This document shows, one piece after another, positions 26,028-48,474 of a stretch of DNA of 52,362 bases (within the stretch, counting starts at the first letter, position 1; every line of letters begins with the position of its first letter). This stretch comes from a virus. The stretch covers positions 1 to 52,362 of the IMG/VR virus record IMGVR_UViG_3300028027_000073; one strand, 5' to 3'. A program made the translations under genes and the position numbers. The notes beneath the pieces are model-generated. The model made no database searches and was not told the DNA's origin. It was given only the letters and a program-made list of their open reading frames with translations.

Positions 26028-26981
26028 CTAAGCACCTGTGTTTTGCACTTTTGCATGTGCGTCAGGGTTCTGTACTACTAAAGCATATTCTGCTGTTAAT
26101 AGCCATTTTGTTGAGTCACCAGTCTTAGCAAGTTCTTCTTTGCTTAAAGGTCTGAGTGAAGCTAAACCAACATAGCCTGGGTCAATACATAAAACTGCTT
26201 CATTACGCATGAAACGGTCAAGTTTCACAGTATGATTACCGAAGTCAGAAACGTAAACGTCTGCTGCACCAGTAATAGTTGCTTGTGTTTTAGATTGTAC
26301 GTCTACAAACTTAGTAGCAATACCACTAAAACCAGAGAAACGTGATTTGTTAGTTGCTGACATAAGGATTGTTGATGGCTCGCCACCATCTGTCCAAGCT
26401 AATTGTAAAGCTGACTTTAAGTCTGCTTCAACGAACGTTACTGCTGTGCCGTCTGTAGGAGCTGCAACTGTTCCACCTGAAAAACCAGGTGTTGTGCCAG
26501 ATGTAGAACCTGTAGCTAATACTCGGTTAGTAATCCAAGACTCAATACCTGCAGATGTACGAGCTGTTGCTGCACCACCTGCTGAAGATGCTTGGTTACG
26601 TACGATAGCATATTCCATGTCACGTTTCATTTCTTTACCAGCTTTCATAAGTTGGTAAGCAACTTCAGACTTACGACCATACTTACGTACTACGTCATAT
26701 GTGTTTGAAATTTGAACTGTTTTGCGTGAGATTTGAGTATAGTTACCTAATACTGTTGTTGCTGCTAATGTTGCGAATGAAGCGTCATCACCTTCAACGT
26801 TTGCATTAGTTGTTGCTGCTGCTAATGCGTCTGTTTGCCATTGATGGTAAGTTTGACCTGCTGACATTCTTTTTGCCATTGATAACAATGGTGTGTCTTC
26901 TGGAGAAATATCAAAGATAATGTCTTCAAAAGACTCTGCTATACCTTTACCGGTATAACTATTGGTTGCTGATACTGCCAT
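26028..26981 (-). CDS. major capsid protein (HK97 fold, DUF5309/SU10-like)
   Basis: The 317-aa product matches short-tailed phage capsid proteins: IAESFEDIIFDISPEDTPLL at the N-terminus, then YHQWQTDALAAA, RKTVQISNTYDVVRKYGR and near the end LRPLSKEELAKTGDSTKW. It lies right after an acidic scaffold gene and before a strong terminator. An AAGGAAACC site precedes the ATG. It forms the icosahedral shell. Confidence 0.85.
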   Translation of the reverse strand: MAVSATNSYTGKGIAESFEDIIFDISPEDTPLLSMAKRMSAGQTYHQWQTDALAAATTNANVEGDDASFATLAATTVLGNYTQISRKTVQISNTYDVVRKYGRKSEVAYQLMKAGKEMKRDMEYAIVRNQASSAGGAATARTSAGIESWITNRVLATGSTSGTTPGFSGGTVAAPTDGTAVTFVEADLKSALQLAWTDGGEPSTILMSATNKSRFSGFSGIATKFVDVQSKTQATITGAADVYVSDFGNHTVKLDRFMRNEAVLCIDPGYVGLASLRPLSKEELAKTGDSTKWLLTAEYALVVQNPDAHAKVQNTGA

Positions 26982-28119: not shown

Positions 28120-28392
28120 CTAACCGAATACTTTAAATCTTGGCTTATCCGTTTGTATAGCTGCTAACTTACCTGTGTGCATCACGTCAGTAAGTTGTTT
28201 GTTAATTTGGTTTAATAACTGTAGTGCGATTACTAATTTGTTGTGTGTCTTCTCATCACCTAGTGGACTGTTAGCCATACTAGCAATAAGACTTTCACGA
28301 ACCTTATCCATAGCTTCTTTGTATAGAGGGTTATCTAATATCTGTGTTGCTTGTTCACCACGTTTAACTTCTTCTAATGACTTATCCGCCAT
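28120..28392 (-). CDS. hypothetical protein between portal and scaffold, 90 aa
   Basis: A helical, charged protein (EEVKRGEQATQILDNPLYKE; NKLVIALQLLNQINKQLTDV). Its ATG overlaps the portal stop by 11 bases. Small helical proteins in this position are common in podovirus-like phages and may be virion or assembly factors, but no function can be assigned. Confidence 0.7.
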   Translation of the reverse strand: MADKSLEEVKRGEQATQILDNPLYKEAMDKVRESLIASMANSPLGDEKTHNKLVIALQLLNQINKQLTDVMHTGKLAAIQTDKPRFKVFG

Positions 28393-30385
28393 ATATCATC
28401 CCTGATTGTGCTTTGATTTGTGCGATAGCTAAATCTGTCTCTGCTCTTAATTGTGCCTTGAAGCGTTCTAGTTCTGCTTGAGATGCTATCTTCTCACGTT
28501 CAATTATAACATCATTCTGTGAACGTACTTGTTCTTGTTGTAATTGTGCTTGAGCTTTTTGTTGTTCAATCTGTAACTGACCTTGAACCATAATCTCTGC
28601 TTCAGAAGGCTTGTCTTGTTGACCTTCTTGCTCAGGTGTATTAGCTGGATTAACCCAGAACTCTTCAGGGTTCTTAAAGCCTGCATTCTGTGTAAGTTTA
28701 GCAAGTGCGTTGTATATCTTTTCAGGGTTAGTTAAGCCAACAGCAATAGCTTCTTTTTGCATTTGTAAGATAGATGTTAAGTGAACCAATTGTTGGTCTT
28801 TATTACCAGCACCTAAGCCTACAGAGATAGATAAGTCTTTACGAGCTTTCCATTCTCTAGGGTCTACTTCTACCCATTTGTTACGTAGACGAATAATGTC
28901 TGGTTTAGTAAGTGTTGTTCTAACTAAGTGATGCACAAGTTTAAATAGTTCTTTAACACCTGTTTCTGCGAATGTTCTAGCTACTAACTCAATACGTTGT
29001 TGAGACGCATTCATAATCTGTGCTACACCGGTAGCTGTCTTGTTAAGACTGTTAGAGTCTAAGCCTTGGTTATAAGCTGTGATACCTGTTCTCTTTTCTT
29101 TCATAGAGTCCATGTATTCAACCATACCGAATGATGATGCTGGTAATGGTGGATGTGATAAAGGCATAATACCTGTACCTGGGTCACCATCTACACGAAC
29201 AATACCACCTGGTCTTGACGTTAGCATATCATCTAGGTTTACTCTGTCAGAGATAGCATAACGACCATTGTTAGCTAGATACATATTATCTAACTGACCA
29301 CGAATAAGAGTAGACTTAATGAGCTGAATGTCCATAGTCAAGTCAGCATAAGAACGACCAATATGTCTATGTGGCATTATCATAGGTGTGATACATGCAA
29401 AAGGTACATACTCACATTTCTCTTTATAAAGAACTGTGTTACCTAATACGACTACTCTATATCTTTCACCATCTAACTTAATGTATGTGTCTTTAACGAG
29501 TGCTTCTTGTGACTCAATAGCTCTATCATATTCTTCATCATAAATATCACGAGCATTAGACTCTTCTTCAAAAGTGTCTCGTAGGTCTGACATAATAGAC
29601 TTGATGTATTCTAATGGCTTGTCAAACGTTTCAGCAATGTCAGCTAACTGCATAACTTCTCTGTGTTGAACAAACTTAGCATCTTGTAGGTTAGGACCTG
29701 ATACCTCTACAGATATCATCATGTTTTCAGGTGCTACGTTATCAATGTATATTTCAGTCTTGCTTTCTGTAACCTTGAGCTTAACGTCATGTAACATAGG
29801 TTGCATAACTGTAGCTGGGTCAACACCATTCATAGCTGCTTGTTGATAGACAACATCCATGTTGACACTTGGGTCAGGGTAACCAGTATGCTCTAATACT
29901 TCTGTATTCTCATCTGAAGCCAACATTTGAAGTTGTGCGTCAGTAAGACCTTTATATTCATATTCTTCTACTTCTTCCTCTTCTTCAGAGTAAACCTTTA
30001 CATATCCGTTCTTAGATAGTAATGCGTCTTTAAACCATACATAGAATACTTTGAAACCTTCGTTCTTTTCCATAACGACATGGTTTACATAATCTGTTTC
30101 TTGGTCTGCTGCTTCTTGGTCTTCAGGACCTTTAGGGTCAAACTGAACAACCTTATCACCGGCTACAAAGACTTTTAAAAGCTGAGGGAGAGCTGACTCA
30201 ATAGTATCTTGAACGTCATACGATACAACTTGTGAACGACCTTCTTCTTCGTTACCGAATGGTTGTCCCAGGTAATAGTCAATCGCTTCTGCTCTATCAT
30301 TAGACAATGCACTATCATTTACACCATAGGCTATATTCTCTTGCGCCTCTATCTGTGCAATTATTTCCATGTCTTCTATATTCAT
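28382..30385 (-). CDS. portal protein, P22-like
   Basis: The 667-aa product begins with IEDMEIIAQIEAQENIAYG and contains RAEAIDYYLGQPFGNEEEGRS near residue 35, followed by VSYDVQDTIESALPQLLKVF, IGRSYADLTMDIQLIKST and a long Gln-rich C-terminal coiled coil. These are features of the P22-type portal family, including the extended barrel helix. ATG 30385 overlaps the terminase stop (TGATG). It forms the dodecameric DNA gate. Confidence 0.85.
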   Translation of the reverse strand: MNIEDMEIIAQIEAQENIAYGVNDSALSNDRAEAIDYYLGQPFGNEEEGRSQVVSYDVQDTIESALPQLLKVFVAGDKVVQFDPKGPEDQEAADQETDYVNHVVMEKNEGFKVFYVWFKDALLSKNGYVKVYSEEEEEVEEYEYKGLTDAQLQMLASDENTEVLEHTGYPDPSVNMDVVYQQAAMNGVDPATVMQPMLHDVKLKVTESKTEIYIDNVAPENMMISVEVSGPNLQDAKFVQHREVMQLADIAETFDKPLEYIKSIMSDLRDTFEEESNARDIYDEEYDRAIESQEALVKDTYIKLDGERYRVVVLGNTVLYKEKCEYVPFACITPMIMPHRHIGRSYADLTMDIQLIKSTLIRGQLDNMYLANNGRYAISDRVNLDDMLTSRPGGIVRVDGDPGTGIMPLSHPPLPASSFGMVEYMDSMKEKRTGITAYNQGLDSNSLNKTATGVAQIMNASQQRIELVARTFAETGVKELFKLVHHLVRTTLTKPDIIRLRNKWVEVDPREWKARKDLSISVGLGAGNKDQQLVHLTSILQMQKEAIAVGLTNPEKIYNALAKLTQNAGFKNPEEFWVNPANTPEQEGQQDKPSEAEIMVQGQLQIEQQKAQAQLQQEQVRSQNDVIIEREKIASQAELERFKAQLRAETDLAIAQIKAQSGMIYGG

Positions 30386-31641
30386 CAAACAATTCCTCTA
30401 TTTGTATATTGTATTTTCTCTTTGCTCCATGACTCGTTCTTCATAGACTCAATAGAGGTACATAAATATCTGAACGCATCTGCTCCATGGCTGTATTCGT
30501 CATGTAGTGGCGCACCAGGTTCGTTAGTTGCAGAGTTTATACTTCTGCGATAATTCTTTAAACATTCAACAAGTCTTTGTGCTGACTTATCAAAGTATAT
30601 ACGGTGAAAGTTCATACGTGCTAACTTAATACCAGACTCTATGTCTGCTTTAGGTACGATACGTATATCCCATCCTAACTTCTTCATAATATCTTCTGCT
30701 GATATGCCATGCTTAAAGTCTTTAGACTGTCCGTCATGTGGTAAGAACATTGTACCCCAGTTATAGGATAAGTTCTTTAGTTGTGCAGAATAGCTATCTA
30801 ATGTTCTGTGGTCATCTTCTATATAACCAATGATGCGTAAGTCTGATATACCTTTTTGGCATAGGATAACTGACATACTGTCGTTCCATCCTAAGTCCAT
30901 AACTACATGAACCTTCATCATAGGGTCATAAGGTACAGTTGTTATACGGTTACCTTCTTGTGCTTCACGTATCTCGTTAGAGTATATAGCACCATCTACA
31001 GCAGCCTTACAATCACCTTCCCAGATGTTTGCATAGTCAGGGTTAGTCTTTTCGCTATGTAGACGTTCTATCTCTAATACTTCAGGAAACCAAGGATTGT
31101 CAGTATAGTTTACCTTGACTACCTTAGCGTTCTCTGGTGGATTAACCACGAACCTAGTATATGTATCGTCTGTATCTATGTTAGGGTTAAATGAGACCCA
31201 TATCTCTGAATTAGGTTTACGTATCGTAGGAATAAGAATATCCCATGACTTTTTACTAACTGTTTGAGCTTCTTCTACCCATACTATGTCACAGCCCTCA
31301 AAAGACTTTATAGACTCAACAGTATTTGTAGCAAGACCAGTAAAGCTAAATGTACTACCGTTACGACCTCTAATCTCTGCTTCCAAGACTTCGTAGAAAG
31401 CTCCTAGACCTAAAGACTGTATTTGGTCATTAAGTAATGTATGTACTGACTGCTTGATAGACTTTTGTATCTCTCGTGCACATAAGACACGTGTTGGCTC
31501 ATTAGCTGCTTTTATAAGCAATGCTCTTGCCATAGACCATGACTTACCTGAACCTCTACCACCGTATGCTACTTTGTAACGGTGTGGCTCAAATAAGAAC
31601 TGTAACCTTTCAGGGAACTCAGCTATCGTTTGGTTTGACAA
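30385..31641 (-). CDS. terL: terminase large subunit, PBSX-type
   Basis: The 418-aa product has Walker A YGGRGSGKSWSMA near residue 26, Walker B CDIVWVEEAQ near residue 114, and nuclease motifs VVMDLGWNDS and EYSHGADAFRYL. The start is TTG 31641 inside the small-subunit gene, or a later codon; TTG is the best fit for the family start. It packages DNA into the prohead and cuts concatemers. The adjacent portal and small subunit genes agree. Confidence 0.88.
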   Translation of the reverse strand: MSNQTIAEFPERLQFLFEPHRYKVAYGGRGSGKSWSMARALLIKAANEPTRVLCAREIQKSIKQSVHTLLNDQIQSLGLGAFYEVLEAEIRGRNGSTFSFTGLATNTVESIKSFEGCDIVWVEEAQTVSKKSWDILIPTIRKPNSEIWVSFNPNIDTDDTYTRFVVNPPENAKVVKVNYTDNPWFPEVLEIERLHSEKTNPDYANIWEGDCKAAVDGAIYSNEIREAQEGNRITTVPYDPMMKVHVVMDLGWNDSMSVILCQKGISDLRIIGYIEDDHRTLDSYSAQLKNLSYNWGTMFLPHDGQSKDFKHGISAEDIMKKLGWDIRIVPKADIESGIKLARMNFHRIYFDKSAQRLVECLKNYRRSINSATNEPGAPLHDEYSHGADAFRYLCTSIESMKNESWSKEKIQYTNRGIV

Positions 31642-34543: not shown

Positions 34544-34708
34544 TTATTTCCTTTTCTTTTTAGATATATTAGCTTCGCTGAGGGCGATTGCTATTGCTTG
34601 TTTTGGATTTGACACTTTCTTTGATGACTTACCTACATTTAAAGTTCCTGCTTTAAATTCCTTCATTACCTTGCTGACCTTTTTCATTGATTTGGTCTTT
34701 GCTTTCAT
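34544..34708 (-). CDS. DUF6496-like basic protein, 54 aa
   Basis: It contains VMKEFKAGTLNVGKSSKKV, then NPKQAIAIALSEANISKKK. This pattern (a short helix, then QAIAIALSEA and a Lys tail) is the DUF6496 family, frequent in phages and bacteria. Function unknown. It is one of four consecutive tiny basic genes upstream of the glycosyltransferase and terminase. Confidence 0.75.
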   Translation of the reverse strand: MKAKTKSMKKVSKVMKEFKAGTLNVGKSSKKVSNPKQAIAIALSEANISKKKRK

Positions 34709-34817
34709 TATCTTTCCTTAACTTGATAAATCGGTGGTCATATCTGCAATCATTACATAGACTATACTCGGTGAAGTCAAATGGTTCACCACATTGTTCG
34801 CAAATAGATAGTTTCAT
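34653..34817 (-). CDS. small zinc-ribbon protein, 54 aa
   Basis: The sequence LSICEQCGEPFDFTEYSLCNDC holds two Cys-x2-Cys pairs and so probably binds zinc. It is the first gene of the late operon. ATG 34817 immediately follows the T tract of the terminator and has no visible ribosome-binding site; the gene overlaps the next by 56 bases. It may be a late regulator, but no family was recognised. Confidence 0.5.
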   Translation of the reverse strand: MKLSICEQCGEPFDFTEYSLCNDCRYDHRFIKLRKDNESKDQINEKGQQGNEGI

Positions 34818-34819
34818 AA

Positions 34820-34860
34820 AAAGAAAAAGCCCAACCAAGGAGAGAGTATGGTCAGGCTTT
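34820..34860 (-). terminator. intrinsic terminator after the late promoter (tR'-like)
   Basis: On the minus strand, arms at 34860-34849 and 34837-34826 form 12 continuous pairs (two G-U) around an 11-base loop, followed by TTTTTCTTTTT. It lies about 50-75 bases downstream of the strong promoter at 34906-34934 and upstream of every late gene. This is the position of lambda tR', which Q must overcome. Confidence 0.8.
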
Positions 34861-34905
34861 TGTGGGATTACGTTATTAACGGACAGGAGTTGTCCAACAA
34901 ATAGC

Positions 34906-34934
34906 ATTATAGCAAACTTTGTAATTATGTGCAA
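34906..34934 (-). promoter_or_regulatory. strong late promoter (pR'-like)
   Basis: On the minus strand TTGCAC (34934-34929), a 17-base spacer and a perfect TATAAT (34911-34906) lie six bases after the stop of the Q-like gene. The transcript leader contains a GGACA/TGTCC hairpin and the CGTTA/TAACG palindrome, then the terminator. This Q gene, promoter, terminator, late genes order equals lambda. Confidence 0.8.
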
Positions 34935-34939
34935 CCACT

Positions 34940-35269
34940 TTATGCGTTTATTCGTCTTTCTGCTATTGTCAGTAAATTATCGTATGCCATGTCTAATTGC
35001 CAGTAAAAGGCTAATGGTGGTTTAGCACCTAAGTATTTAGCATAGATAGCGTCTTGTTGTCCTTGTTCTAAGCTATGTATGATAGCGTGTATAGTTCTAA
35101 TATTAGACATATCTTGGGCAGAACACATCTCTTCAAACGCTTCTGAAGTTGACTCACCACCGGATGACATACCTATGCTTTTAGAGGGGTATCCTAGTTT
35201 ATGGGTATCATGTTTCATCCATAAGCTCCAATCCTCAAGGATGGATAATAAGCGTTCCATACTAATCAT
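34940..35269 (-). CDS. Q-like late antiterminator
   Basis: The 109-aa protein matches the short lambdoid/phage-82-type antitermination Q pattern: ILEDWSLWMKHDTHKLGYPS, then SIGMSSGG and a C-terminal helical part (IIHSLEQGQQDAIYAKYLG, LLTIAERR). Q proteins load onto RNA polymerase paused just after the late promoter and let it pass terminators. Its gene ends six bases before that promoter, which strongly supports the role. The start overlaps the upstream stop. Confidence 0.75.
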   Translation of the reverse strand: MISMERLLSILEDWSLWMKHDTHKLGYPSKSIGMSSGGESTSEAFEEMCSAQDMSNIRTIHAIIHSLEQGQQDAIYAKYLGAKPPLAFYWQLDMAYDNLLTIAERRINA

Positions 35270-36125: not shown

Positions 36126-36419
36126 TTATTTTACTCCCAAATGTCCGTTAGTAAATAACCAACCTATAGTTTTTCTATGTGCTTCTTCCCATGCTGCTAT
36201 TCTATCATGTTTATCTAGCATCTTATCATTATCTATCATGTGGTGGCATTGGTGGCATAAGAAAGCTATACGATAATCGTGTCCCTTTATACCTGTTCCC
36301 TTACCATCACGTAGTTGGTTAGAGTGTGCAGATACTACAGTTCCGTCTTGCATAGAACACATCATACATGGTGCTCCATCTGCTAGTTTAAGTAGTTTAG
36401 GATTACGATAATTCATCAT
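36126..36419 (-). CDS. DUF1364-like HNH-type nuclease
   Basis: The 97-aa product begins NYRNPKLLKLADGAPCMMC and has a later FLCHQCHHMID, giving Cys-x2-Cys and Cys-x2-Cys-His zinc sites and a His-rich core typical of DUF1364/HNH nucleases encoded with NinB. It may cut structured DNA during recombination. It overlaps ninB by 17 bases. Confidence 0.75.
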   Translation of the reverse strand: MMNYRNPKLLKLADGAPCMMCSMQDGTVVSAHSNQLRDGKGTGIKGHDYRIAFLCHQCHHMIDNDKMLDKHDRIAAWEEAHRKTIGWLFTNGHLGVK

Positions 36420-36774
36420 AGTCCCACATCCAACCTAAATTAGTTTGTGCCCAAATTTCTATTGAGTTTTGGTATTCCGTCATGTCAGATGTTGTTAGTT
36501 TTGTCGTTGACTTTATAAGCTCTACTGGCATACCTGCAATTTCTGTTTGGTATCGTAAAAACTTATATCCCATAAGCTCATGTAATTTATCTTTTTCAAT
36601 ACCTGTATGCTGAGATATGCTTGTATATAATTGCCATAGTCTTTCATTTTGCTCATGACTTCTGTTTAATTTAGCATCTGATACTGTTACTCTCCAACGC
36701 TTAGTAAAGTCAAGACTTTTTAACTTCTCTACAAACATTGGTAAATTGTCTTTTGTTAAACTCCACTTCAACAT
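36403..36774 (-). CDS. ninB: NinB recombination protein
   Basis: The product carries the NinB signature: WRVTVSDAKLNRSHEQNERL followed by WQLYTSISQHTG, DKLHELMGYKFL and late SIEIWAQTNLG. NinB binds single-stranded DNA and assists phage recombination in lambda. ATG 36774 with a GGAT-type site is chosen; the frame stays open to 36810. Confidence 0.85.
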   Translation of the reverse strand: MLKWSLTKDNLPMFVEKLKSLDFTKRWRVTVSDAKLNRSHEQNERLWQLYTSISQHTGIEKDKLHELMGYKFLRYQTEIAGMPVELIKSTTKLTTSDMTEYQNSIEIWAQTNLGWMWDYDELS

Positions 36775-36892
36775 TATTATATCCTTTACTTTTAAATGTT
36801 CTTCCATCAATCAAAGTAGCTTTATATACCATATCCTTATCCCATTTAGCTACAGCCTTAATAAATTTATTAGCATCATTTTCATCACTCAT
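36710..36892 (-). CDS. hypothetical protein, 60 aa
   Basis: ATG 36892 overlaps the helicase stop by four bases (ATGA), the usual coupling in this operon. The protein is charged (FIKAVAKWDKDMVYKATLID) and ends in a basic tail that overlaps the ninB start by 65 bases in another frame. Function unknown; reality is likely from the coupling. Confidence 0.5.
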   Translation of the reverse strand: MSDENDANKFIKAVAKWDKDMVYKATLIDGRTFKSKGYNNVEVEFNKRQFTNVCREVKKS

Positions 36893-37806
36893 CTTGGTGG
36901 ACTCTCGTTATATCGTAAACCTTTTTGGTCAAACCAAAAGTTAAATGAACCTTCCCATTGTGCATTACGCTGCTTCTGAACAAAGACTTTACAATCAGGA
37001 ATAATCTTTAACTCAGCTTCAGAAGTCTTACCTTCTTCTATTAATCTTTCTTTAGACCTATTACGCCATACACAAATAATATTATCACATAAGTTACGAA
37101 TATGCGAACTTCCCATAATGTTTGTAGCATCTGGTATCTCTTCTTCTGACTTCATTTTTCTTGTATGTGCAACTAAAAAAACTGCAATGTTAAGGTCTCT
37201 AACAGTTACAGCTAATTTATCTACAAACATTTTTTGAGCCTCTAAAGACTCTTCAGATATATCTGACATTTTCATAAGGCTATCTATAACAAATACTTCT
37301 ACTCCTAAAATATGTTTGCCATAGTAAAGCGTAGCTATCATATCCTGTGATGTAGTTTGTTGGTGCTGGTCGTAAATATATAACTTGTCTTTTGCACGTT
37401 CACAAAACTTGCGTATGTAATCGTCTGTAGGCTCTGGTGAACCTAATGCTTGGGTACATAGTCTCGCCAAAGATAATACCGGACGCATTTCTAGGCTTGC
37501 CAGTAGACATTTAGTGCCTTGCTTCATCATAGATAATATCACTTGTGACAACCAGAGGCTCTTCCCATGACCTGAGACGCCCGTTAAAATATTTAGCTCA
37601 TTCCTAACACGGAACTTATCTTCCGTCTTAACCCAGCCAAGCGATTTGCCACTATGAATTTCCTCACCAAAATACTTGACCAAGTCATCAGCAAATATAT
37701 CCGTACTCTTAACTTTAAACTCTGCATGTCCATACCCCTCATTATAAAATTCTTGAACTGTTGATTGGCTAACTGTTAGTTTATCTATTACTTCACCTAT
37801 GTTCAC
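36889..37806 (-). CDS. DnaB-like replicative helicase
   Basis: Walker A TGVSGHGKS (about residues 75-83), SLEM after the next strand, Walker B VEVFVIDSLMKMS, a sensor segment VFLVAHTRK and NIMGSSHIRNLCDNIICVWRN fit the RecA-like DnaB/Twinkle helicase core. At 305 aa it lacks a full N-terminal domain. GTG 37806 overlaps the stop of the initiator (TAGTG). It would unwind DNA at the phage origin, loaded by the O-like protein. Confidence 0.82.
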   Translation of the reverse strand: MNIGEVIDKLTVSQSTVQEFYNEGYGHAEFKVKSTDIFADDLVKYFGEEIHSGKSLGWVKTEDKFRVRNELNILTGVSGHGKSLWLSQVILSMMKQGTKCLLASLEMRPVLSLARLCTQALGSPEPTDDYIRKFCERAKDKLYIYDQHQQTTSQDMIATLYYGKHILGVEVFVIDSLMKMSDISEESLEAQKMFVDKLAVTVRDLNIAVFLVAHTRKMKSEEEIPDATNIMGSSHIRNLCDNIICVWRNRSKERLIEEGKTSEAELKIIPDCKVFVQKQRNAQWEGSFNFWFDQKGLRYNESPPR

Positions 37807-38423
37807 TAAATGCCACCTTCCCAAACCTTACGAACTTGTTGAACATCCCCGTCGTTCCATCTCTCCTGATTAAGAAGCGTTAAAGGGGCTGGCGAGAAAC
37901 CATCTCTCCATGATTGAGTATCTTTCATCTTCTTTACATACCCTATCACTTCATCTGCTATACCGTCAAGATTTTTATTAGCCCATCTTTCCATACATGT
38001 TTTCTTGTTGACTTTACGAACATTAGGATAACTTTCCCAAAATTCTTCAAACCTATTGGTCGTTTTAACGACATATATATCTTCTCTTATCTTCTCTTCT
38101 CTTCTCTTCTCTATCCTAACAGTCTCATAGTTTTCTACTAGTAATCCTCTAGTAAATAGTTCTTTTACTATTTTTTCAACAAAATCAATAGGATAATGAA
38201 GTCTAAAAGCTATTTCAAAGTTGTCAGGTAACACACCATCACTTTCAGAACCAAGACACCACAACTCTACTAAAACAGCTTTTTGTTCAAAAGATAGTCT
38301 ATGAATTTCAATGTTGTTTATGTAATCCGTACCATAAAATTTAAACCACGTCATCTTTTTTTGATAACGTGGGTTCTTAGGATTGTAGAGATTAAACTTT
38401 TCCCAGTTCTTAATCTTGTACAT
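37806..38423 (-). CDS. O-like replication initiator / helicase loader
   Basis: The 205-aa product has an N-terminal winged helix (LSFEQKAVLVELWCLGSESD then NFEIAFRLHYPIDFVEKIV) like phage replication initiators, a charged RREEKIRED linker, and a C-terminal domain with FEEFWESYPNVRKVNKKTC ending with SPAPLTLLNQERWND. That part is common in replication proteins of this type. ATG 38423 follows a GAGG site. Its gene contains a repeat that may be the origin. Confidence 0.78.
   Translation of the reverse strand: MYKIKNWEKFNLYNPKNPRYQKKMTWFKFYGTDYINNIEIHRLSFEQKAVLVELWCLGSESDGVLPDNFEIAFRLHYPIDFVEKIVKELFTRGLLVENYETVRIEKRREEKIREDIYVVKTTNRFEEFWESYPNVRKVNKKTCMERWANKNLDGIADEVIGYVKKMKDTQSWRDGFSPAPLTLLNQERWNDGDVQQVRKVWEGGI
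38059..38112. other. candidate replication origin inside the initiator gene
   Basis: A perfect palindrome GTCGTT-TT-AACGAC at 38059-38072 adjoins an ATATATAT stretch and a run of 5-bp TCTTC-type direct repeats (38081-38112; purine-rich on the coding strand). In lambda the origin lies within O as iterons next to AT-rich DNA. The similarity of layout is suggestive only. Confidence 0.35.
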
Positions 38424-38577
38424 TAGTTGCCTCATTTCCAATCTTTAAACCTTTTTTAAGTATAACTCTTATAAAGCCATACTCTCTCTCATTTAATTCA
38501 AATCCTCCATCATTTAATTTACCTTCAGCCACTCCAAATATTGCATGAATAGCTACTAATGCGTCTCTTTCTGTCAT
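38410..38577 (-). CDS. hypothetical first gene of the leftward early operon, 55 aa
   Basis: ATG 38577 has a strong AGGAGAG site. The protein is small with ALVAIHAIFGVAEGKLNDGG followed by ELNEREYGFIRVILKKGL. It overlaps the initiator gene by 14 bases. Function unknown; position is like that of early regulators. Confidence 0.65.
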   Translation of the reverse strand: MTERDALVAIHAIFGVAEGKLNDGGFELNEREYGFIRVILKKGLKIGNEATNVQD

Positions 38578-39114: not shown

Positions 39115-39272
39115 AACCTATATCTGAAATACTAGAAGATGTTTGGAAGGAATTAAAAGAACTTAACGATAGATTTGACGAAAGGGAGAGAGCAAATGGA
39201 AGACCAATTTTACCAGGAAGTGATGCAGGAATTGCACGAGATGGAAACCAAACAACAGGAGAGAATAAATGA
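39099..39272 (+). CDS. hypothetical early protein, 57 aa
   Basis: ATG 39099 lies in the end of the previous gene; the stop overlaps the ERF start. The charged helix ISEILEDVWKELKELNDRFD corresponds to that of 277-474 in unit A. Function unknown. Confidence 0.55.
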   Translation: MSTELKPISEILEDVWKELKELNDRFDERERANGRPILPGSDAGIARDGNQTTGENK

Positions 39273-39282
39273 GCATTCATAA
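39196..39282 (+). CDS. possible overlapping peptide, 28 aa
   Basis: A GGGAGAG site precedes ATG 39196. The peptide (DQFYQEVMQELHEMETKQQE in its core) lies in a second frame across the previous gene and into erf. In unit A the frame upstream of erf gives a similar stretch (EQHQKEVLETLH), fused in frame with erf. Weak but repeated. Confidence 0.25.
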   Translation: MEDQFYQEVMQELHEMETKQQERINEHS

Positions 39283-39811
39283 AAAATTAATGCAAGCAAG
39301 ATTAAAGTTGCAAACAACAGACCTTAAAAAGTCTGGTCATAATAAATTTGCAGGATATAAGTATTTTGAGTTAGGTGATTTTTTACCTACTATTCAAGAA
39401 ATTTCTAATGAGGTGGGTATCTGTGGCACAGTAACATTTTATACAGATATAGCAATTCTTACTATTACAGACATGGATGATGCTACACAGTTTATTGAGT
39501 TTAAATGTCCTATGTCTTCAGCAGCTTTAAAAGGTTGCCATGATGTGCAAAACTTAGGTGCAGTTCAAACATACCTTCGTAGGTATTTATGGACTAATGC
39601 GTTTGAGATAGTAGAACATGACGCAATTGATGCTGCTAAACCTATAGAACCAGAAGAAGTTGAAATGACTGAGTCTCAATTAAGTAAATTTAAAACACAA
39701 TTAGAAGAAGCATTAAAAGAAGGTAAGCTAAAAGAAGCATTCTTTAAACTACCAGAAAATGTTAAAACTCAATTACGGGATTATGCTAATGAACTTAAGA
39801 AGTCTGCATGA
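39269..39811 (+). CDS. erf: ERF-family single-strand annealing protein
   Basis: The 180-aa product is nearly identical to the unit A ERF over its first 125 residues and then has a C-terminal extension of about 55 residues with two helices (QLSKFKTQLEEALKEGKLKE; VKTQLRDYANELKK). Such tails often mediate partner contacts. The partner exonuclease is a different one from that in unit A, so the tail may match it. Overlaps the exonuclease start by four bases. Confidence 0.87.
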   Translation: MSIHKKLMQARLKLQTTDLKKSGHNKFAGYKYFELGDFLPTIQEISNEVGICGTVTFYTDIAILTITDMDDATQFIEFKCPMSSAALKGCHDVQNLGAVQTYLRRYLWTNAFEIVEHDAIDAAKPIEPEEVEMTESQLSKFKTQLEEALKEGKLKEAFFKLPENVKTQLRDYANELKKSA

Positions 39812-40410
39812 GTCATTTAACCGACAATAGACGTCATAATATTATTACAGCTAGCAATGCTTGGTCTGCTGTGTATGAGAGACAAAAATTATGGCGTCAA
39901 ATGACTTTAAGAGAAGCTCCATTTGAAGGCAATGAAATGACTGAATGGGGTAATCTTAACGAACATCTTGCTATTTGTGAGTTTGAAAAAGCTATGGGAG
40001 AGATTACTGAAACTGGTAATAAGTTAATTGTTCATCCTGATTTACCATTAGGTGCAAGTCCAGATGGATTCTTAAATAGGCTGCCAATAGAAGCAAAGTG
40101 TCCTTATAGCCAAGAGTTTTATGGTATGATTCCAGACCGTTATTATTTCCAAACACAGTTACAAATGGAAGTATGTGGTGCTCCAAGATGTTATTTTGTA
40201 GTGTGGACACCAAAAGGAATTACTATACAAATTATTGAAAGAAGTAAAGAATGGTTTGACTGGTATAAACCTTTAGCGTTAGAATTTATGAAGTTTGTAG
40301 AAGATGATGTAGAGCCTACTCGTTGGAAACGCAAACCCATATTTGATATAGATTTGAAAGAAGATAAATTATTATTTCCAAAGGAGCAACAAGATGGCAT
40401 CAGTAAATAA
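39808..40410 (+). CDS. YqaJ-type exonuclease, distinct from that of unit A
   Basis: A 200-aa protein with [20 protein letters not shown] at the N-terminus, [13 protein letters not shown], then the catalytic [18 protein letters not shown] and [15 protein letters not shown]. Family and length equal the unit A enzyme but the sequence outside the active-site region is unrelated. It processes ends for ERF. It overlaps the SSB start by 17 bases. Confidence 0.85.
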
Positions 40411-40798
40411 AGCAATTATCGTAGGTAATTTAGGGAAAGACCCAGAGGTTAAATTTTTAACTAATGGTGACGCTGTGTGTAGTTTTAGTATTGCTACTAC
40501 TGACAGTTGGAAAGATAAAGCAGGTCAAAAGCAAGAAAAAACAGAATGGCATAACATTGTTATGTATAGAAAGTTAGCTGAAATTGCTGGTGAGTATCTT
40601 AAAAAAGGCAGTCCAGTATACGTTGAAGGTGCTTTACAAACTCGTAAATGGACTAATAAAGAAGGTCAAGATAAATATACAACTGAAATTGTAGCAAACA
40701 GTATGCAAATGTTAGGCGGTAAAACTTTACAACAAGAACAAAATAATACTAGAAGTGGTCCTGCTATTGAAGGGGCAGATGAGGACGTGCCATTTTAA
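40394..40798 (+). CDS. ssb: single-stranded DNA-binding protein
   Basis: The 134-aa product is a classical [55 protein letters not shown] and [16 protein letters not shown] form the OB-fold, followed by a short linker and the acidic DEDVPF tip. An AAGGAGCAAC site precedes ATG 40394. It protects single strands and recruits partners. Unit A has only a 76-aa substitute. Confidence 0.92.
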
Positions 40799-40807
40799 AG
40801 CACATCC
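40783..40807. terminator. stem-loop between ssb and pqqA
   Basis: Arms 40783-40790 and 40800-40807 pair at seven of eight positions with one C-A mismatch, spanning the ssb stop. Position and mismatch place agree with the stem at 1894-1921 though the arm sequences differ. No strong U tract. It lies between convergent ssb and pqqA. Confidence 0.35.
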
Positions 40808-40822
40808 CCATTAGCATGATAA

Positions 40823-40894
40823 CTATTTGTTCATTACGTACATAGTTACTTCAAAGCCAAAACGCATTTCTGTAGCTGCTGGAGTTGTCCACAT
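40823..40894 (-). CDS. pqqA: PqqA, peptide precursor of pyrroloquinoline quinone
   Basis: A 23-codon gene with an AAGGAT site before ATG 40894. It has the same RFGFEVTMY core with Glu15 and Tyr19 as the copy at 1933-2004, differing only at residues 4 and 6 (Thr for Ser, Ala for Ser). Of the eight base differences, five are silent or in the stop codon. It lies in the same slot and orientation as in unit A, after ssb and before the hydrolase. A TATAAT lies upstream on the minus strand (about 40951-40946) but without a good -35. Confidence 0.9.
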   Translation of the reverse strand: MWTTPAATEMRFGFEVTMYVMNK

Positions 40895-40997
40895 GGTATT
40901 TATCCTTAAGTAATATATTATGCTTAATTGCACAATATAATGGAATTATACGCTTATGTGGGTTTGCTAGACACCAGATAATCATTAAAGGTAGATA

Positions 40998-41387
40998 ATG
41001 GATATACATATTTCAGAACATGATGTACATTGTATAGCGACTGCTGTTTATACAGAAGTCAACATGCAATCACTAGAAGAAAAACTAGGGGTTATTAATG
41101 TCATTATGAACAGAGTTAGGTCTAAACGATTTGGTCGTGATGTTTGTGAGGTAGTTTATGCTAGGGGACAGTTCATTGGTATAGAAAACATGATGAAAGC
41201 TAAAGAAAAGAACATAGACCAAGAAACACTATTAAAGACTAAGTTACTTGTAATAGATACATTATTCTTTAAAAAGCATGCAAATCCTGTAGGGAATAGT
41301 CTATACTTTCATGACGATAGCGTAGATATGAAATATATCTGGGACAAGAAACCAAACAAAAAAATTGGAAGGATGGTGTTTTACTAA
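40998..41387 (+). CDS. SleB/CwlJ-like cell wall hydrolase
   Basis: The 129-aa orthologue of 2450-2839, with HCIATAVYTEVNMQSLEEKL, then GVINVIMNRVRSKRF, CEVVYARGQF and LYFHDDSVDM. An AAAGGTAG site precedes the ATG. The conserved acidic residue in AVYTEVN is kept. In unit B it directly follows the pqqA region because the 109-aa gene of unit A is missing. Confidence 0.8.
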   Translation: MDIHISEHDVHCIATAVYTEVNMQSLEEKLGVINVIMNRVRSKRFGRDVCEVVYARGQFIGIENMMKAKEKNIDQETLLKTKLLVIDTLFFKKHANPVGNSLYFHDDSVDMKYIWDKKPNKKIGRMVFY

Positions 41388-41632
41388 TGGCTAAAAAAGA
41401 ACCTGTAGCATGGCTTTATGAAGAGTTTGATATTAGGTCAGGTGACCTTAAAGCATCTTATTTGTGGTCGTTTCATCCTAAAGAATTGTCATATTTGAAT
41501 GATTTAAAAGGTTCAACACATCATATAAAAATAACACCATTATTCAGAGGCGAAAAAATAGAAGAATACAAGTCAATGAATAAGTACTCAGAAGAAACAC
41601 AAAGATTAATTGAAAGCAATAATGGACTCTAA
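41387..41632 (+). CDS. hypothetical protein, 81 aa
   Basis: Starts by TAATG overlap with the hydrolase. VAWLYEEFDIRSGDLKASYL followed by ELSYLNDLKGSTHHIKITPL parallels the 76-aa protein at 2839-3069. A conserved small partner of the hydrolase gene; function unknown. Confidence 0.65.
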   Translation: MAKKEPVAWLYEEFDIRSGDLKASYLWSFHPKELSYLNDLKGSTHHIKITPLFRGEKIEEYKSMNKYSEETQRLIESNNGL

Positions 41633-41768
41633 ACCACTTACCCAAGAAGAAATTATAAAGGTATATAAAGAAGCATTTGGATACGGTAGTCAAGTAATAA
41701 CGATTGACAAGATATTTAAGTTTGCTAGACTTATAGAACAATTGCATGGAGTAAAAGATGTACACTAA
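41622..41768 (+). CDS. hypothetical protein, 48 aa
   Basis: ATG 41622 overlaps the previous stop. The peptide contains EEIIKVYKEAFGYGSQVITI and FKFARLIEQLHGV, a form seen in small phage proteins of unknown role. Overlaps the next gene. Unit-B specific. Confidence 0.6.
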   Translation: MDSKPLTQEEIIKVYKEAFGYGSQVITIDKIFKFARLIEQLHGVKDVH

Positions 41769-42021
41769 ACTAGACGACCAAAGACAAGCAAAGTTTGTTA
41801 TAAACTATATTACTGCACATCCTGGTTGCAGCATTAAACAAATTGTGCAAGAATGTGTCATTTCAAGGTCAAGGTTAAAATACCTAGAAAGTCAAGAATA
41901 TTTGATTTTGCCTAAATGGACTTATAGCAATGAACTAGATAAACGATTTAAGAATAGAAAATACGTATCTGTAACTGTAGGTAGGGAGTATGGAAAATGG
42001 GACGAGCAGAAAAGGTATTAG
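41758..42021 (+). CDS. possible helix-turn-helix protein, 87 aa
   Basis: FVINYITAHPGCSIKQIVQE followed by RSRLKYLESQEYLILP resembles a winged-helix DNA-binding domain with a recognition helix. The C-terminus is basic. It lies where unit A has the glycosyltransferase and FkbM genes. It may regulate early genes; this is inference. Confidence 0.5.
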   Translation: MYTKLDDQRQAKFVINYITAHPGCSIKQIVQECVISRSRLKYLESQEYLILPKWTYSNELDKRFKNRKYVSVTVGREYGKWDEQKRY

Positions 42022-42113
42022 ATGTAGTAGTATGGTTGTTGATTGTTGGTGGTATGGGTTGGTTTGCTTATGGTTGTTATGAACTTATTGATTTATTTTT
42101 TCTAAGGGGATAG
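41997..42113 (+). CDS. membrane peptide, 38 aa
   Basis: ATG 41997 lies in the end of the previous gene. A central hydrophobic segment (VVVWLLIVGGMGWFAYGCY) is flanked by charged ends. A GGGAGTATGG stretch may serve as ribosome-binding site. No family known. Confidence 0.55.
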   Translation: MGRAEKVLDVVVWLLIVGGMGWFAYGCYELIDLFFLRG

Positions 42114-42115
42114 AT

Positions 42116-42391
42116 ATGGTAGATATGGTAAATAGACCTCCACATTATTTAGTGGGCGGAATTGAAGCAATAGATGTAATTAAGAGTCGTTTAACTAAAG
42201 AAGAATACATTGGGTATCTTAAAGGCTGTAAGCTCAAGTATGACTTACGCTATCCGTTTAAAGATAATCCACAACAAGATTTAGACAAGTCTGATTGGTA
42301 TAAAAATAAGCTATTAGAAGTTACTAAAGACGAAGATGCTGTAAACCCACCTGAAGTAGAAGCTATCTTAGAAAGATTTGATGATGAATAA
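42116..42391 (+). CDS. DUF3310 protein (T7 gp1.7-like)
   Basis: The 91-aa orthologue of 4390-4668, with RPPHYLVGGIEAIDVIKSRL, YIGYLKGCKLKYDLRYPF and SDWYKNKLLEVTKDEDAV. An AAGGGGA site lies before ATG 42116; ATG 42125 is possible. Probable role in nucleotide metabolism by analogy with T7 gp1.7. Confidence 0.85.
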   Translation: MVDMVNRPPHYLVGGIEAIDVIKSRLTKEEYIGYLKGCKLKYDLRYPFKDNPQQDLDKSDWYKNKLLEVTKDEDAVNPPEVEAILERFDDE

Positions 42392-42539
42392 AACCTATTG
42401 GGTATTTATTGTGGTATTAGCTGCATTAGCTATTTGGGGAACAGAAAGAGCTATGGCTCAAACTACGACTATACTAGCACCAGATGGTTCTGTAACTGTC
42501 TGTCAGGTTGGTAGTAATGGTGTGATTATTTGTGTCTAA
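42384..42539 (+). CDS. secreted peptide, 51 aa
   Basis: A signal peptide (WVFIVVLAALAIWG...AMA) is followed by a short mature part QTTTILAPDGSVTVCQVGS and NGVIICV, with two cysteines that may form a disulfide. ATG overlaps the DUF3310 stop; its own stop overlaps the next GTG. No counterpart in unit A. It would be exported early in infection. Confidence 0.6.
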   Translation: MNKTYWVFIVVLAALAIWGTERAMAQTTTILAPDGSVTVCQVGSNGVIICV

Positions 42540-42888
42540 TGGTATGCGTAATAGTCAAGCTACTCATGTAGATTTTGGCTTTTTGCGTGGAGCAATAAAA
42601 AGTAATCCTAAAGTAATACCTGTAAATTTAGACATGGTATATGAACATAAGGGTCATTTTTTATTTGCAGAATGGAAACGTGAAAACGAACAAATTAGTG
42701 AAGGGCAAAAGATACTATTAAGAAACCTAGCAAAACTACATACAGTATTGCTAATTATTGGACATAGTGATGAAACATCAACCGAAGTAAAAGATTTTTA
42801 TTGGGTTCGTGGGCTATATATGACTCATGTTGGAAAGGGTATAGACTCATTAAAAGATTATATAGATGATTGGTGGAACGAATATTAA
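42532..42888 (+). CDS. putative PD-(D/E)XK-type nuclease, 118 aa
   Basis: GTG 42532 overlaps the previous stop (GTGTCTAA). VNLDMVYEHKGHFLFAEWKR supplies an Asp...Glu-x-Lys arrangement typical of small PD-(D/E)XK proteins, followed by a helix (EGQKILLRNLAKLHTVLLII). It is the last rightward gene, converging with the gene ending at 42885. Unit A has an unrelated nuclease-like gene there. Confidence 0.55.
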   Translation: MSNGMRNSQATHVDFGFLRGAIKSNPKVIPVNLDMVYEHKGHFLFAEWKRENEQISEGQKILLRNLAKLHTVLLIIGHSDETSTEVKDFYWVRGLYMTHVGKGIDSLKDYIDDWWNEY

Positions 42889-43061
42889 TCATCCATAGGT
42901 GTTAATTCACCATAGATAGCTAGTTCTTCACCACTTATTTCTATCATGCTATCGTCATCTAATGTGATAACTATAGTGCTATCGCCATGTAATGCTTCAC
43001 AAGATACAATCACTCTTCCTAACATGTGATTACAGATAATTTCTACTTCTGACCGTTGCAT
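42885..43061 (-). CDS. hypothetical acidic protein, 58 aa
   Basis: Orthologue of 5159-5326. ATG 43061 is preferred. It ends with LDDDSMIEISGEELAIYGEL and is conserved despite exchange of the gene just upstream. Function unknown. Confidence 0.7.
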   Translation of the reverse strand: MQRSEVEIICNHMLGRVIVSCEALHGDSTIVITLDDDSMIEISGEELAIYGELTPMDD

Positions 43062-43068
43062 AATTGTC

Positions 43069-43773
43069 CTAAGAAACATGACCATTCCAACGCCCATTTT
43101 CTTTTAATACCATAGGCATTAGCTTTGGTTGACCGTTAATAATAACTCCACAACCTACAATGAAACGACTCTTAAAGTTTTTAGCATAGTCAAATGCCAT
43201 AGACTTTTGATGTATTAAACATCCTACTTGCATACCCCAAATAAGAGCATCTGGGTTACTGTAATAACCAATACTGAATTTAGTATGATAGTGACCCTGC
43301 ACCGTATTCATTCCATACTGCTGGGCTACCTTTAAAACGTCAGCAGATAAACCATGAGTAAAGAAACATCTAGAGTTATCACTTAAGGTTATGGTGTGGT
43401 CATCTACCCATTCCCAGCCTTTGCCAACGCCTAAGAACTCATTGTAATGCTTTAGATATGCTTTAGGCATACCATACTTTAATGCTCTACGATAAACTAA
43501 AGAGCTATGGTTAGAATGAACTAAAACCATCTTAGGGAATATCTTTTCTAGTTCTTTGACATGCTTCTTAGACTCTTCTAATTCATGTCCAGCAGAGTAT
43601 AAGTCTGGGTTATGTTCGTGCATAGAGATAGCGTGTTGGTCTAGCTCATCACCTATGTTGACTATATGGTCAAACTTGTATTTAGTCTTTAATGCTTTGA
43701 GAAACGCAAATGCGTCAGGATGATGATATGGAATATGTAGGTCAGATATGACTAGAACTGATTTATATTTCAA
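43069..43773 (-). CDS. calcineurin-like metallophosphoesterase
   Basis: The 234-aa product shows the metal-binding motif series: VISDLHIPYHH (Asp11, His13), IVNIGDELDQH, a modified GNH motif VLVHSNHSS, FFTHGLS and VQGHYHTKFS. Such enzymes hydrolyse phosphodiesters, often nucleic acids or nucleotides. It takes the slot held in unit A by the DnaQ-like exonuclease, between the endolysin and the small acidic protein. Confidence 0.88.
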   Translation of the reverse strand: MKYKSVLVISDLHIPYHHPDAFAFLKALKTKYKFDHIVNIGDELDQHAISMHEHNPDLYSAGHELEESKKHVKELEKIFPKMVLVHSNHSSLVYRRALKYGMPKAYLKHYNEFLGVGKGWEWVDDHTITLSDNSRCFFTHGLSADVLKVAQQYGMNTVQGHYHTKFSIGYYSNPDALIWGMQVGCLIHQKSMAFDYAKNFKSRFIVGCGVIINGQPKLMPMVLKENGRWNGHVS

Positions 43774-43801
43774 ACTACTCTCCTAGGGTTAAGATGCTTT
43801 A

Positions 43802-44326
43802 TTATAACCCTAAAAACAATTTGCGTTCATCTAATCTTCTGTTTTGTAAACCTTTTAATATCTTACCACCAGCTTTACAATATTTAACTAACGACTCCAT
43901 AGCCGCTTCTTTATCGCCACGTAACAACGCTTGACGGATGGTTGAACGCTGAAAGCATCCAAGACCCAGATTAAAGCAAAAGCTGACAAGAGCGTCAAAC
44001 TCATGTTGTCGTAAAGGCACGTTAGGTAACATCTTATGTACTCCCAACTCAAAACGGTTGAGGTCTCGTTTAAGAATTGCATCTATTTCCTCGTTAGTAA
44101 ATGTTTTGTTCCATTCAGGCGGTAATGTTTTGCCATCACCAATCAAATGACCAATTCCTACTGTCCACAGTTTTGCGGGACACTGGTATGGTTTGTTTCT
44201 AACACCTTCGTGATGACGTAGTAACTTGATAAGTTTATCAGATACTTTCACGTTTCTTTTCCCATGTACGAGAGCCGAAATAGAAACCAATAATAGATGC
44301 AGTAATAGCCATTTCATCTGAACCAA
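43802..44326 (-). CDS. GH24 endolysin
   Basis: A 174-aa protein nearly the same as that at 6100-6624, with the active site HHEG, QCPA and WTVGIGH in the same spacing. The N-terminal hydrophobic export segment differs (WLLLHLLLVSISALVHG), so this end has diverged while the catalytic core is identical over 207 bp. ATG 44317 is an alternative start. Overlaps the holin gene by 89 bases. Confidence 0.92.
   Translation of the reverse strand: MVQMKWLLLHLLLVSISALVHGKRNVKVSDKLIKLLRHHEGVRNKPYQCPAKLWTVGIGHLIGDGKTLPPEWNKTFTNEEIDAILKRDLNRFELGVHKMLPNVPLRQHEFDALVSFCFNLGLGCFQRSTIRQALLRGDKEAAMESLVKYCKAGGKILKGLQNRRLDERKLFLGL
43925..44131. repeat. 207-bp block identical to 6223-6429
   Basis: Second copy of the exact repeat in the endolysin gene. 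The first difference on each side is one base outside the block. It lies 37,702 bases from the first copy. Confidence 0.85.
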
Positions 44327-44735
44327 ATACTGCCTCTGAAGCTGTTACAAAATCTACACCTGTCCACATAGCCCAACCTAATGAGATAAGATTAATAAGC
44401 ACTAACTCACCTACAAAGATAAATGCTACTACAGGTCTAACCATAGCGTTCCAGTTTTTAACTGTAGAACTTGCATTTTCTACTAACTTCTTATCATGGT
44501 CGTATAATGCTTCACGTTCTTGTGCGTATGTTTGCACTTCTATTTGGTCTAGCTTAATAGCTTCTATTTTTTCTTGTGATATAAAACCTGCTTTAGCTAA
44601 TTCTAATTCACGTTCTGTTTGTAGTTTAGCCATTTCTCTTTCATGCTTTTGGTCACCCTTTTGCTGAAAGAAACCTAAAATACTAGGTAAACCTGAGGTA
44701 GCAAAACCTAATATGCCTGATAAAATACTTAACAT
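44238..44735 (-). CDS. holin, three-transmembrane type
   Basis: A 165-aa orthologue of 6536-7033 with the same hydrophobic N-terminus, charged helix and two C-terminal membrane segments; only about ten residues differ. Same overlap with the endolysin. Expected to permeabilise the inner membrane. Confidence 0.8.
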   Translation of the reverse strand: MLSILSGILGFATSGLPSILGFFQQKGDQKHEREMAKLQTERELELAKAGFISQEKIEAIKLDQIEVQTYAQEREALYDHDKKLVENASSTVKNWNAMVRPVVAFIFVGELVLINLISLGWAMWTGVDFVTASEAVFGSDEMAITASIIGFYFGSRTWEKKRESI

Positions 44736-45095
44736 CTATAACTCCTTTGGGTCAAAGCCATACATTTTGGCTACACGTTTTTGTAATTTAAGAAACAAGC
44801 CTTTATGACTCGTGTACTGTTCTGTTTTTGGTGAAACTGTATATACACACATATGCAATATTTCATGACAGAGTGTAATTAACACAGGATATAAGTGAGA
44901 GTGTCTTGCAGTAGATATAGTAATGACATGTGGTTCACCTTGTTCTGGTGGTTGATATTCTCCACATATAGTATCGTCATGCAATACTATGAAGTCTACT
45001 TTAGATGCAGGTGGTAGTTTGTATTCATCAAATATAGGCATCTCTATAATTGCACTATAGAGGTTAGCTATGTTATTTTCTGTAATGAATGTCAT
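44736..45095 (-). CDS. HExxH zinc metallopeptidase-like protein
   Basis: A 119-aa orthologue of 7034-7393 with the same LCHEILHM zinc site. Differences cluster in one short loop (VLHDDTICGEY against VNDNAICGEY). Its start overlaps the upstream stop. Confidence 0.7.
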   Translation of the reverse strand: MTFITENNIANLYSAIIEMPIFDEYKLPPASKVDFIVLHDDTICGEYQPPEQGEPHVITISTARHSHLYPVLITLCHEILHMCVYTVSPKTEQYTSHKGLFLKLQKRVAKMYGFDPKEL

Positions 45096-45499
45096 TTTGA
45101 TAATGGGTTCATTGTGCTACGTTTAACAGTATTTAGTTTATCATCCATTGCATTTACGGTTGCTTCTAATTCTTTACGTAGTCCTGATACCATAGCAGAA
45201 GTCTCACGTGAGTTGGCAATAGCGTCTGAAGACTTTTCACTAGCTTTCATTATAGACTCTGATAGCTGATATTGTCTTTCATTAATAGCTTTAACTTGTA
45301 TCTCTAAACCATTTAACTTAGACTCTATAGGAGCTAAGTCTAAACTGTCAACAGCTTCAATTGCCGTAACCATCTTGTTGTAAAAAGTTATGCCTGCGTA
45401 TGCCGAGCCAGCCACTATTGGCAATGCTATTAAAATCAACTTCAGAAGTGCCGAGCTGGATAAGCTCAAGTTGAAGGTTTTGATTTTTTCCGAACTCAT
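45092..45499 (-). CDS. membrane-anchored coiled-coil protein
   Basis: A 135-aa protein differing by about one residue from that at 7390-7797, with one membrane segment and a coiled coil. The first 143 bases are dual coding with the Cys-rich protein gene, which may explain the low divergence. Confidence 0.7.
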   Translation of the reverse strand: MSSEKIKTFNLSLSSSALLKLILIALPIVAGSAYAGITFYNKMVTAIEAVDSLDLAPIESKLNGLEIQVKAINERQYQLSESIMKASEKSSDAIANSRETSAMVSGLRKELEATVNAMDDKLNTVKRSTMNPLSK

Positions 45500-46869: not shown

Positions 46870-47027
46870 TATTTCATTCCATTGGTTAGTAGATAAACAA
46901 TAACGAAACCTGCTGTGCCTAATAAGATTTGTTCTAGGCGTTTAAGTCTTGCGTTTATTTGCTCATAACGTAACGCACATACTTCTTCATGCGTACTTAA
47001 ACGTGCTTCTACGTCTGTCTTGACCAT
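46869..47027 (-). CDS. coiled-coil tail-anchored membrane protein, 52 aa
   Basis: Orthologue of 9163-9321 with the identical core RYEQINARLKRLEQILLGTA and a membrane segment. Stop and next ATG share one base. Probably an accessory membrane protein of the lysis or virion region. Confidence 0.75.
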   Translation of the reverse strand: MVKTDVEARLSTHEEVCALRYEQINARLKRLEQILLGTAGFVIVYLLTNGMK

Positions 47028-47036
47028 TACTGTTCC

Positions 47037-48458: not shown

Positions 48459-48474
48459 ATATCCTTATTGAGGT

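Follow-up and report, generated by a model that had tools for sequence, protein, structure and literature searches.

The window analysed here, a 52 362-nucleotide virus contig from IMG/VR with a G+C content of 36%, probably carries a lambda-type late switch operated by a Q-like antiterminator, in a phage for which neither an integrase nor a repressor was detected. This reading is drawn from the parts of the locus, their conservation and the predicted Q21-like fold of the protein, and it leads us to infer a short transcript, read-through of the terminator and a requirement for Q. The promoter–terminator unit that follows the Q-like gene is confirmed, at the level of sequence, as real and conserved. 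What is new here is a conserved cis-feature that is predicted to lie in the transcript and not in the −35/−10 spacer, where published loading sites are found.

Organization of the late-control locus

The switch locus lies on the minus strand of the window. Read leftwards, it comprises genes for a replication-initiator-like protein, a DnaB-like helicase, NinB/Orf and YbcO, three small genes and the gene for a 109-residue protein, which stands between the nin-type genes and the late operon, as is characteristic of a Q21-type antiterminator. The features are as follows.

37806..38441, minus strand: replication-initiator-like gene (phrog_270, E 1e-10)
36889..37824, minus strand: DnaB-like helicase gene of the early-right operon (phrog_239, E 6.4e-45; phrog_19, E 1.6e-21)
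36403..36810, minus strand: NinB/Orf-like gene, upstream of Q (phrog_72, E 1.1e-18; PF05772, 22.1 bits, cut-off 23.8)
36126..36419, minus strand: YbcO-like nuclease gene, upstream of Q (PF07102, E 5.4e-6, 26.8 bits, cut-off 29.9)
34940..35269, minus strand: putative Q-type antiterminator gene, 109 aa (PF06530, E 7.3e-4; predicted fold)
34906..34934, minus strand: predicted late promoter, TTGCAC-17-TATAAT with an extended −10 (TGC) (sequence; relatives have a promoter at the corresponding position)
34881..34895, minus strand: leader hairpin, GGACA-ACTCC-TGTCC, about +5 to +19, one more U-G pair possible (fold, conservation)
34867..34874, minus strand: conserved AACGTAAT, T of CGT at about +30, 11 nt past the hairpin (conservation)
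34825..34861, minus strand: intrinsic terminator (tR'-like), 13 pairs, 11-nt loop with ACTCTCTCC, U tract to 34818 (fold)
34653..34817, minus strand: first gene past the terminator, 54 aa, CxxC...CxxC, zinc-ribbon-like (weak zinc-ribbon matches below cut-off)
30385..31641, minus strand: terminase large subunit, presumed late operon (phrog_3717, E 3.7e-66)
28382..30388, minus strand: portal protein, presumed late operon (phrog_1216, E 2.6e-146)
26028..26981, minus strand: major head protein, presumed late operon (phrog_1328, E 3e-99)

The 109-codon reading frame (35269–34940) stops at TAA and is followed by the five bases AGTGG, then by TTGCAC (34934–34929) and, after the 17-nt spacer, by TATAAT (34911–34906). 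A first-pass annotation of this DNA had already proposed a promoter at this place; the arrangement is real and lies on the minus strand, but the gap is five bases and not the six given there. The same annotation had described a 12-pair terminator ahead of the first late gene, which is indeed present (34861–34825) but has 13 pairs. By sequence and fold the locus therefore has the pR'–tR' order, with a promoter after Q and an intrinsic terminator before the first late gene. From the promoter spacing, a transcription start at about 34899 is predicted. The leader RNA folds with a z score of −4.1, the terminator alone with −16.4 kcal/mol (z −5.3) and the hairpin with −6.3 kcal/mol (z −2.2). The ATG of the 54-aa gene (34817) follows the U tract directly, no ribosome site being visible, and a CxxC zinc-ribbon-like protein holds the same place in clade D.

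The late structural genes that could be recognized (terminase, portal, scaffold and coat) all lie downstream on the same strand, and the portal, scaffold and coat genes are of podovirus-like type, as had been proposed. The further claim that all late genes lie downstream holds for the structural genes only. A cell-wall hydrolase gene (PF07486, E 5.4e-16) at 2450–2839 is on the plus strand beside the early genes for Erf and an exonuclease, outside the minus-strand operon, so that some late-type gene is located elsewhere. The related phage ctXG6705 likewise has a lytic transglycosylase at the corresponding place.

Identity of the 109-residue protein

The 109-residue protein is best described as a putative Q-like antiterminator, by a weak family match, its predicted fold and the place of its gene. 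The match to PF06530 (Phage_antitermQ) scores 19.9 bits, which is under the Pfam cut-off of 26. Among 24 family members, four matched PF06530 and two matched Sigma70_r4_2 at E <= 0.01, with a best PF06530 E value of 3.6e-4. Comparison with seven enterobacterial Q proteins using hhalign gave a probability of 8.3% (E 0.004) over the N-terminal part only, and neither an NCBIfam profile search nor a PDB sequence search with the protein returned a relevant match.

The AlphaFold2 model of the protein has a pLDDT of 80.9, and its best VIA-align match is 6p18_Q (Q21; Z 6.8, 96 residues aligned, r.m.s.d. 5.5), followed by sigma region 4. The model of a clade-B member (pLDDT 76.0) is best matched by 6jnx_P, from a Q-engaged complex (Z 6.9, 84 aligned, r.m.s.d. 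4.3), and here sigma region 4 domains tie with the phage 21 Q. For both models many sigma region 4 domains rank after Q21 and the Z scores are below 8; a Foldseek search by itself returned nothing at E <= 0.001. The models agree with the published description of 21Q as sigma-region-4-like (PMC6606751). Three Q families have been named (PMC7171158). In view of the sub-threshold PF06530 score, the Z scores below 8, the null Foldseek result and the hhalign probability we call the protein Q-like and do not file it as a PF06530 member.

Conservation of the promoter–terminator unit

A scan of 3.5 kb found 11 promoter-like sites where 12.6 were expected, i.e. no excess, although the late promoter was the best of the 11 (10 of 12 matches plus TG). 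The terminator search of the same scan limited loops to 8 nt, which is why the terminator at 34861–34825 was not listed. Promoters followed by a terminator within about 100 nt are rare: a scan of both strands of the 52 kb gave this place and one more, a plus-strand site whose promoter is weak. The real evidence for the unit is its conservation.

Relatives were collected as tblastn-confirmed loci from viral contigs. Loci were scored when they extended at least 150 nt past the Q stop, using motif patterns fitted per clade, so that very different units would be missed. On this basis the unit, made up of promoter, hairpin region and terminator, follows Q in 74 of 74 scored loci of a first large set (80 loci, six too short) and in 77 of 77 of a second (80 loci, three too short). 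It is present at the 12 window-type Q loci of a 41-locus set, in which three loci were too incomplete to score and two too short, at both EBPR-type loci (2/2), and at nine of the 12 loci examined in a further set (six of clade D, one of E and two of B). Lineages in which Q shares only 34–60% identity also carry it. At ten loci a methyltransferase-like gene is inserted between Q and the promoter, and the unit is kept beyond the insert. This gene, seen in L010 after position 1892 and in nine similar loci, encodes 229 residues, overlaps the Q stop and was recognized by eye from an SPPY motif, one copy having been translated; it ends in ..RINA, as Q does, so that the promoter context is restored after the insert. 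In L028 (5390–5990) the late promoter and its terminator are separated by an inserted ORF that, judged by eye, resembles an HNH homing endonuclease; the insertion point is ..TAATAACGTA, and that motif flanks the ORF on both sides.

The exception is the Venkman type. Its Q is 49% identical, yet there is no promoter–terminator unit beside it in any scored locus (24 of 24 in the 41-locus set and three of three in the further set, 27 of 27 altogether; L082 and L199–L224), and the late genes of Venkman are on the other strand. A promoter and hairpin upstream of Venkman gp2 were considered as an equivalent and dropped, since the pattern occurs in one of 18 records and the homologous promoter of a relative lacks the hairpin. 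Venkman infects marine Methylophilales and has a short tail in the microscope (PMC8163748).

Conservation is uneven within the unit. The −35/−10 spacer is the least conserved part in both clades: the mean pairwise identity in clade A, to which the window belongs, is 0.52 for the spacer, 0.78 for the stretch that runs from +1 to CGTAAT and 0.95 for the terminator, and in clade B it is 0.49 for the spacer and 0.83 for the leader. Clade-B terminators vary in sequence while keeping the stem. Three terminator versions occur among 38 distinct clade-A leaders, and the terminator loop (34838–34848) with ACTCTCTCC is constant in all 38, which is more than a terminator needs. These leaders were gathered by the loop motif itself, but the Q-anchored list shows the constant loop too. 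A search of both strands of the window for a second 9-mer copy of the ACTCTCTCC loop, as a target, found none. A stretch similar to the loop, CTCTCC(GTA), stands ahead of the terminator in clade D and in many leaders of clade B.

The transcribed hairpin and the CGTA element

A hairpin at about +3/+5 to +19/+21 is found in clades A, B and D and in the EBPR lineage, and at +4 to +17 in clade E. The arms differ among these five lineages (GGACA/TGTCC, GGGCA/TGCCC, TGGG/CCCA, GGG/CCC and GGGC/GCCC). The stem is broken or reduced to three pairs in L035, L037 and L226 of clade A and in L133, L171, L196 and L198 of clade B. In most clade-A and clade-B rows the hairpin is separated from the T of CGT by 10–11 nt, and CGTA is similarly spaced from the hairpin in D and in the majority of clade B. 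The spacing in hairpin-stabilized pauses such as those of his and trp is close to this value.

The covariation of the hairpin is modest. A GC–AU exchange occurs at one pair in clade A and in clade B. For A4, three of five covariation measures beat all 500 column shuffles and the other two were reached by 123 and 496 of the 500; for A3 no measure rose above the shuffles (61 to 322 of 500 reached it). Pairing in the true register was 72.9% for A4 against at most 41.7% when slid, and 84.2% for A3 against at most 39.2%, an excess that is partly expected because the structure was read from the same rows. Chance values for the hairpin within single lineages range from 0.003 to 0.11. A search of the leader against Rfam gave no match. 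A covariance model of the leader (R1) found a single clear copy in the window, but it was trained on a set that includes the window's own leader and so contributes little; the leader of ctXG6705 itself (L083) reached only E 0.8.

The small palindromes that the first-pass annotation noted in the leader fared differently. GGACA-ACTCC-TGTCC (34895–34881) is retained as the hairpin, whereas CGTTAATAACG is not conserved as a palindrome and only its AACGTAAT end is kept. The suggestion that such a palindrome may be the site of Q loading or pausing agrees with the conservation of the former.

Proposed mechanism and alternative explanations

In the proposed switch, the early-right operon (replication genes, nin-like genes and Q) would produce Q, and host RNA polymerase would start at the promoter immediately after Q. 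Without Q the polymerase would stop at the terminator about 75 nt further on and yield a short RNA; Q would load on the polymerase in the leader, allowing read-through of the terminator and leftward transcription of the structural genes. As to where Q loads, the constraint on the transcribed part makes the hairpin region the most likely loading or pausing element. We tentatively favour, at somewhat short of even confidence, loading at a transcribed element over loading at a spacer DNA site with a sigma-dependent −10-like pause. The element would be the hairpin at about +4 to +20, and polymerase would halt near CGTA, about 10 nt beyond the stem.

Known Q-type loading relies on a DNA site within the −35/−10 interval together with a −10-like pause (PMC6606751). 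The loading element of AlpA (PMC9371919) and the putative element of GafZ (PMC11150451) also lie between −35 and −10, so that the same Q switch could be loaded here as in lambda or phage 21, with both elements too degenerate to see and the hairpin secondary. We consider this rather unlikely. In both clades the spacer varies more than any other part of the unit, and a −10-like hexamer occurs at +1 to +20 in eight of 23 distinct initial transcribed sequences (ITS) of clade A, below the null mean of 17.0. In clade B the hexamer is present in 31 of 31 distinct ITS (null 18.5), with GATAGT/TAGTCT at +6/+8, so a sigma-dependent pause is possible in that clade but is not a shared feature. The earlier proposal of a lambda late-control layout accordingly stands for the Q-type protein and for the order of promoter and terminator, but the locus is not evidently lambda-like in its loading step: no conserved site was seen in the spacer, and the −10-like pause is not conserved in the window's clade.

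The conserved inverted repeat invites other explanations. It could be a DNA operator at +5 to +19, bound by a Cro-like regulator or a Q dimer, and most clade-A leaders do contain the perfect inverted half-sites GGACA/TGTCC. An RNA is tentatively favoured because G-U pairs at several positions would break the symmetry of a DNA site (in A3, G-U in 5/20 and U-G in 5/20 at two pairs) and because the inner bases in clades B and D are conserved yet asymmetric; we regard the operator as improbable. About equally improbable, in our view, is that the hairpin takes no part in antitermination and serves only to guard the late mRNA, or the short RNA, against decay at its 5' end. Stem-loops near the 5' end stabilize mRNA, and the hairpin begins 2–4 nt from the predicted 5' end, but in A, B and D conservation extends to the bases of the loop and to the spacing from CGTA, which is beyond the needs of a protective stem. 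That the gene before the unit is unrelated and the terminator is freed by a competing fold or a ligand, as in RNA-only attenuation, would account for a hairpin preceding a terminator. The two neither overlap nor pair in the fold, there is no Rfam match, and the unit accompanies Q at every scored A- and B-type locus; as clade B retains the hairpin even where one terminator stem has been replaced by another, we judge such attenuation very unlikely.

Comparison with known systems

A close parallel is phage 21 (pR'/tR', PF06530), whose small, sigma-region-4-like Q is the best structural match to the predicted models; as in the window, the gene lies just before the late operon with a promoter and then an intrinsic terminator. 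The window differs in that its Q is below the Pfam cut-off, no conserved spacer element was seen, no −10-like element is conserved in its clade and a transcribed hairpin is. Lambda shares the order of replication genes, nin-type genes, Q, promoter, terminator and late genes, but its Q belongs to another family (PF03589), and lysis genes come first among its late genes, where the window has a zinc-ribbon gene and packaging genes. The lambda tR' is also further downstream of its promoter than the terminator of the window.

Pseudomonas phage vB_PaeP_YA3 has NinB, NinG and an antitermQ gene, followed by a predicted promoter with a terminator 224 nt away, and its authors proposed the same late-switch mechanism (PMC7326022). 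YA3 is temperate, with repressor genes, and the prediction concerns one genome, with no leader comparison in the available text of that account (PMC7326022). EBPR podovirus 1 (JF412294) has a Q homologue of 34% identity, a promoter, a GGGC/GCCC hairpin at about +5 to +20, a terminator, TerS and TerL; unlike the window it is GC-rich and lacks CGTA, and its Q homologue is annotated only as hypothetical. AlpA of Pseudomonas aeruginosa is similar in that it is an antiterminator loaded at the promoter and acts on a terminator lying just downstream, which it overrides.

Enterobacterial PF06530 leaders (six phages) and DLP12 were rejected for a comparison of hairpins, because the promoter could not be placed confidently. 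Phage H66 was also set aside, its record having no PF06530 match and, by eye, no promoter–terminator unit in the short gap before TerS. Existing annotation already gives MW202481 a 'phage antitermination protein Q' and Venkman an 'antitermination-like protein'. In the open-licence PMC literature we found no description of such a leader element or of Q in lytic podoviruses; the available text of PMC9004378 and PMC6624301 had no bearing on the leader.

Lifestyle and contig structure

Searches of the window with PF00589, PF00239, PF01381 and PF00717 gave no match, so that no tyrosine integrase, serine recombinase, or HTH_3 or S24 repressor was detected, in agreement with the original description of a phage without repressor or integrase. 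The combination of integrase and CI-type repressor that marks a temperate lambdoid phage is therefore absent from the window as searched. A scan of bacterial genome contigs found no relative of the Q-like protein, and hence no prophage form was seen. These results support, but do not prove, a lytic life.

Positions 39254–52362 of the window repeat 442–14980 at 71–98% identity with an offset of about 37–39 kb (for example, 6097–9321 against 43799–47027, 90% over 3251). It seems that a single circle of about 38 kb was walked on into a second strain to give this contig; given this repeat of the left part at the right end, 52 kb is probably not the real size of the genome.

Implications

Taken in its broadest form, the proposal would be that a Q-fold antiterminator of a large, widespread, aquatic and apparently lytic phage clade is loaded by a 5'-end RNA hairpin and a hairpin-type pause about 10 nt further on, in place of the promoter DNA site and the sigma-dependent pause. 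As a whole we regard this as doubtful. The clade-A hairpin has a 5-pair stem and a 5-base loop, the same size as lambda boxB, and RNA-hairpin loading, if true, would form a bridge from the Q class, which is loaded on DNA, to the N/put class, which is loaded on RNA; loading of a Q-fold protein in the leader would then be another route to the same nozzle mechanism. The terminated transcript, whose ACUCUCUCC loop is constant in clade A, might also act as a small RNA. The leader, of about 80 nt, is a compact, ready-made test case, and the unit offers a way to locate late promoters, and the points at which operons start, in many aquatic phages that are uncultured.
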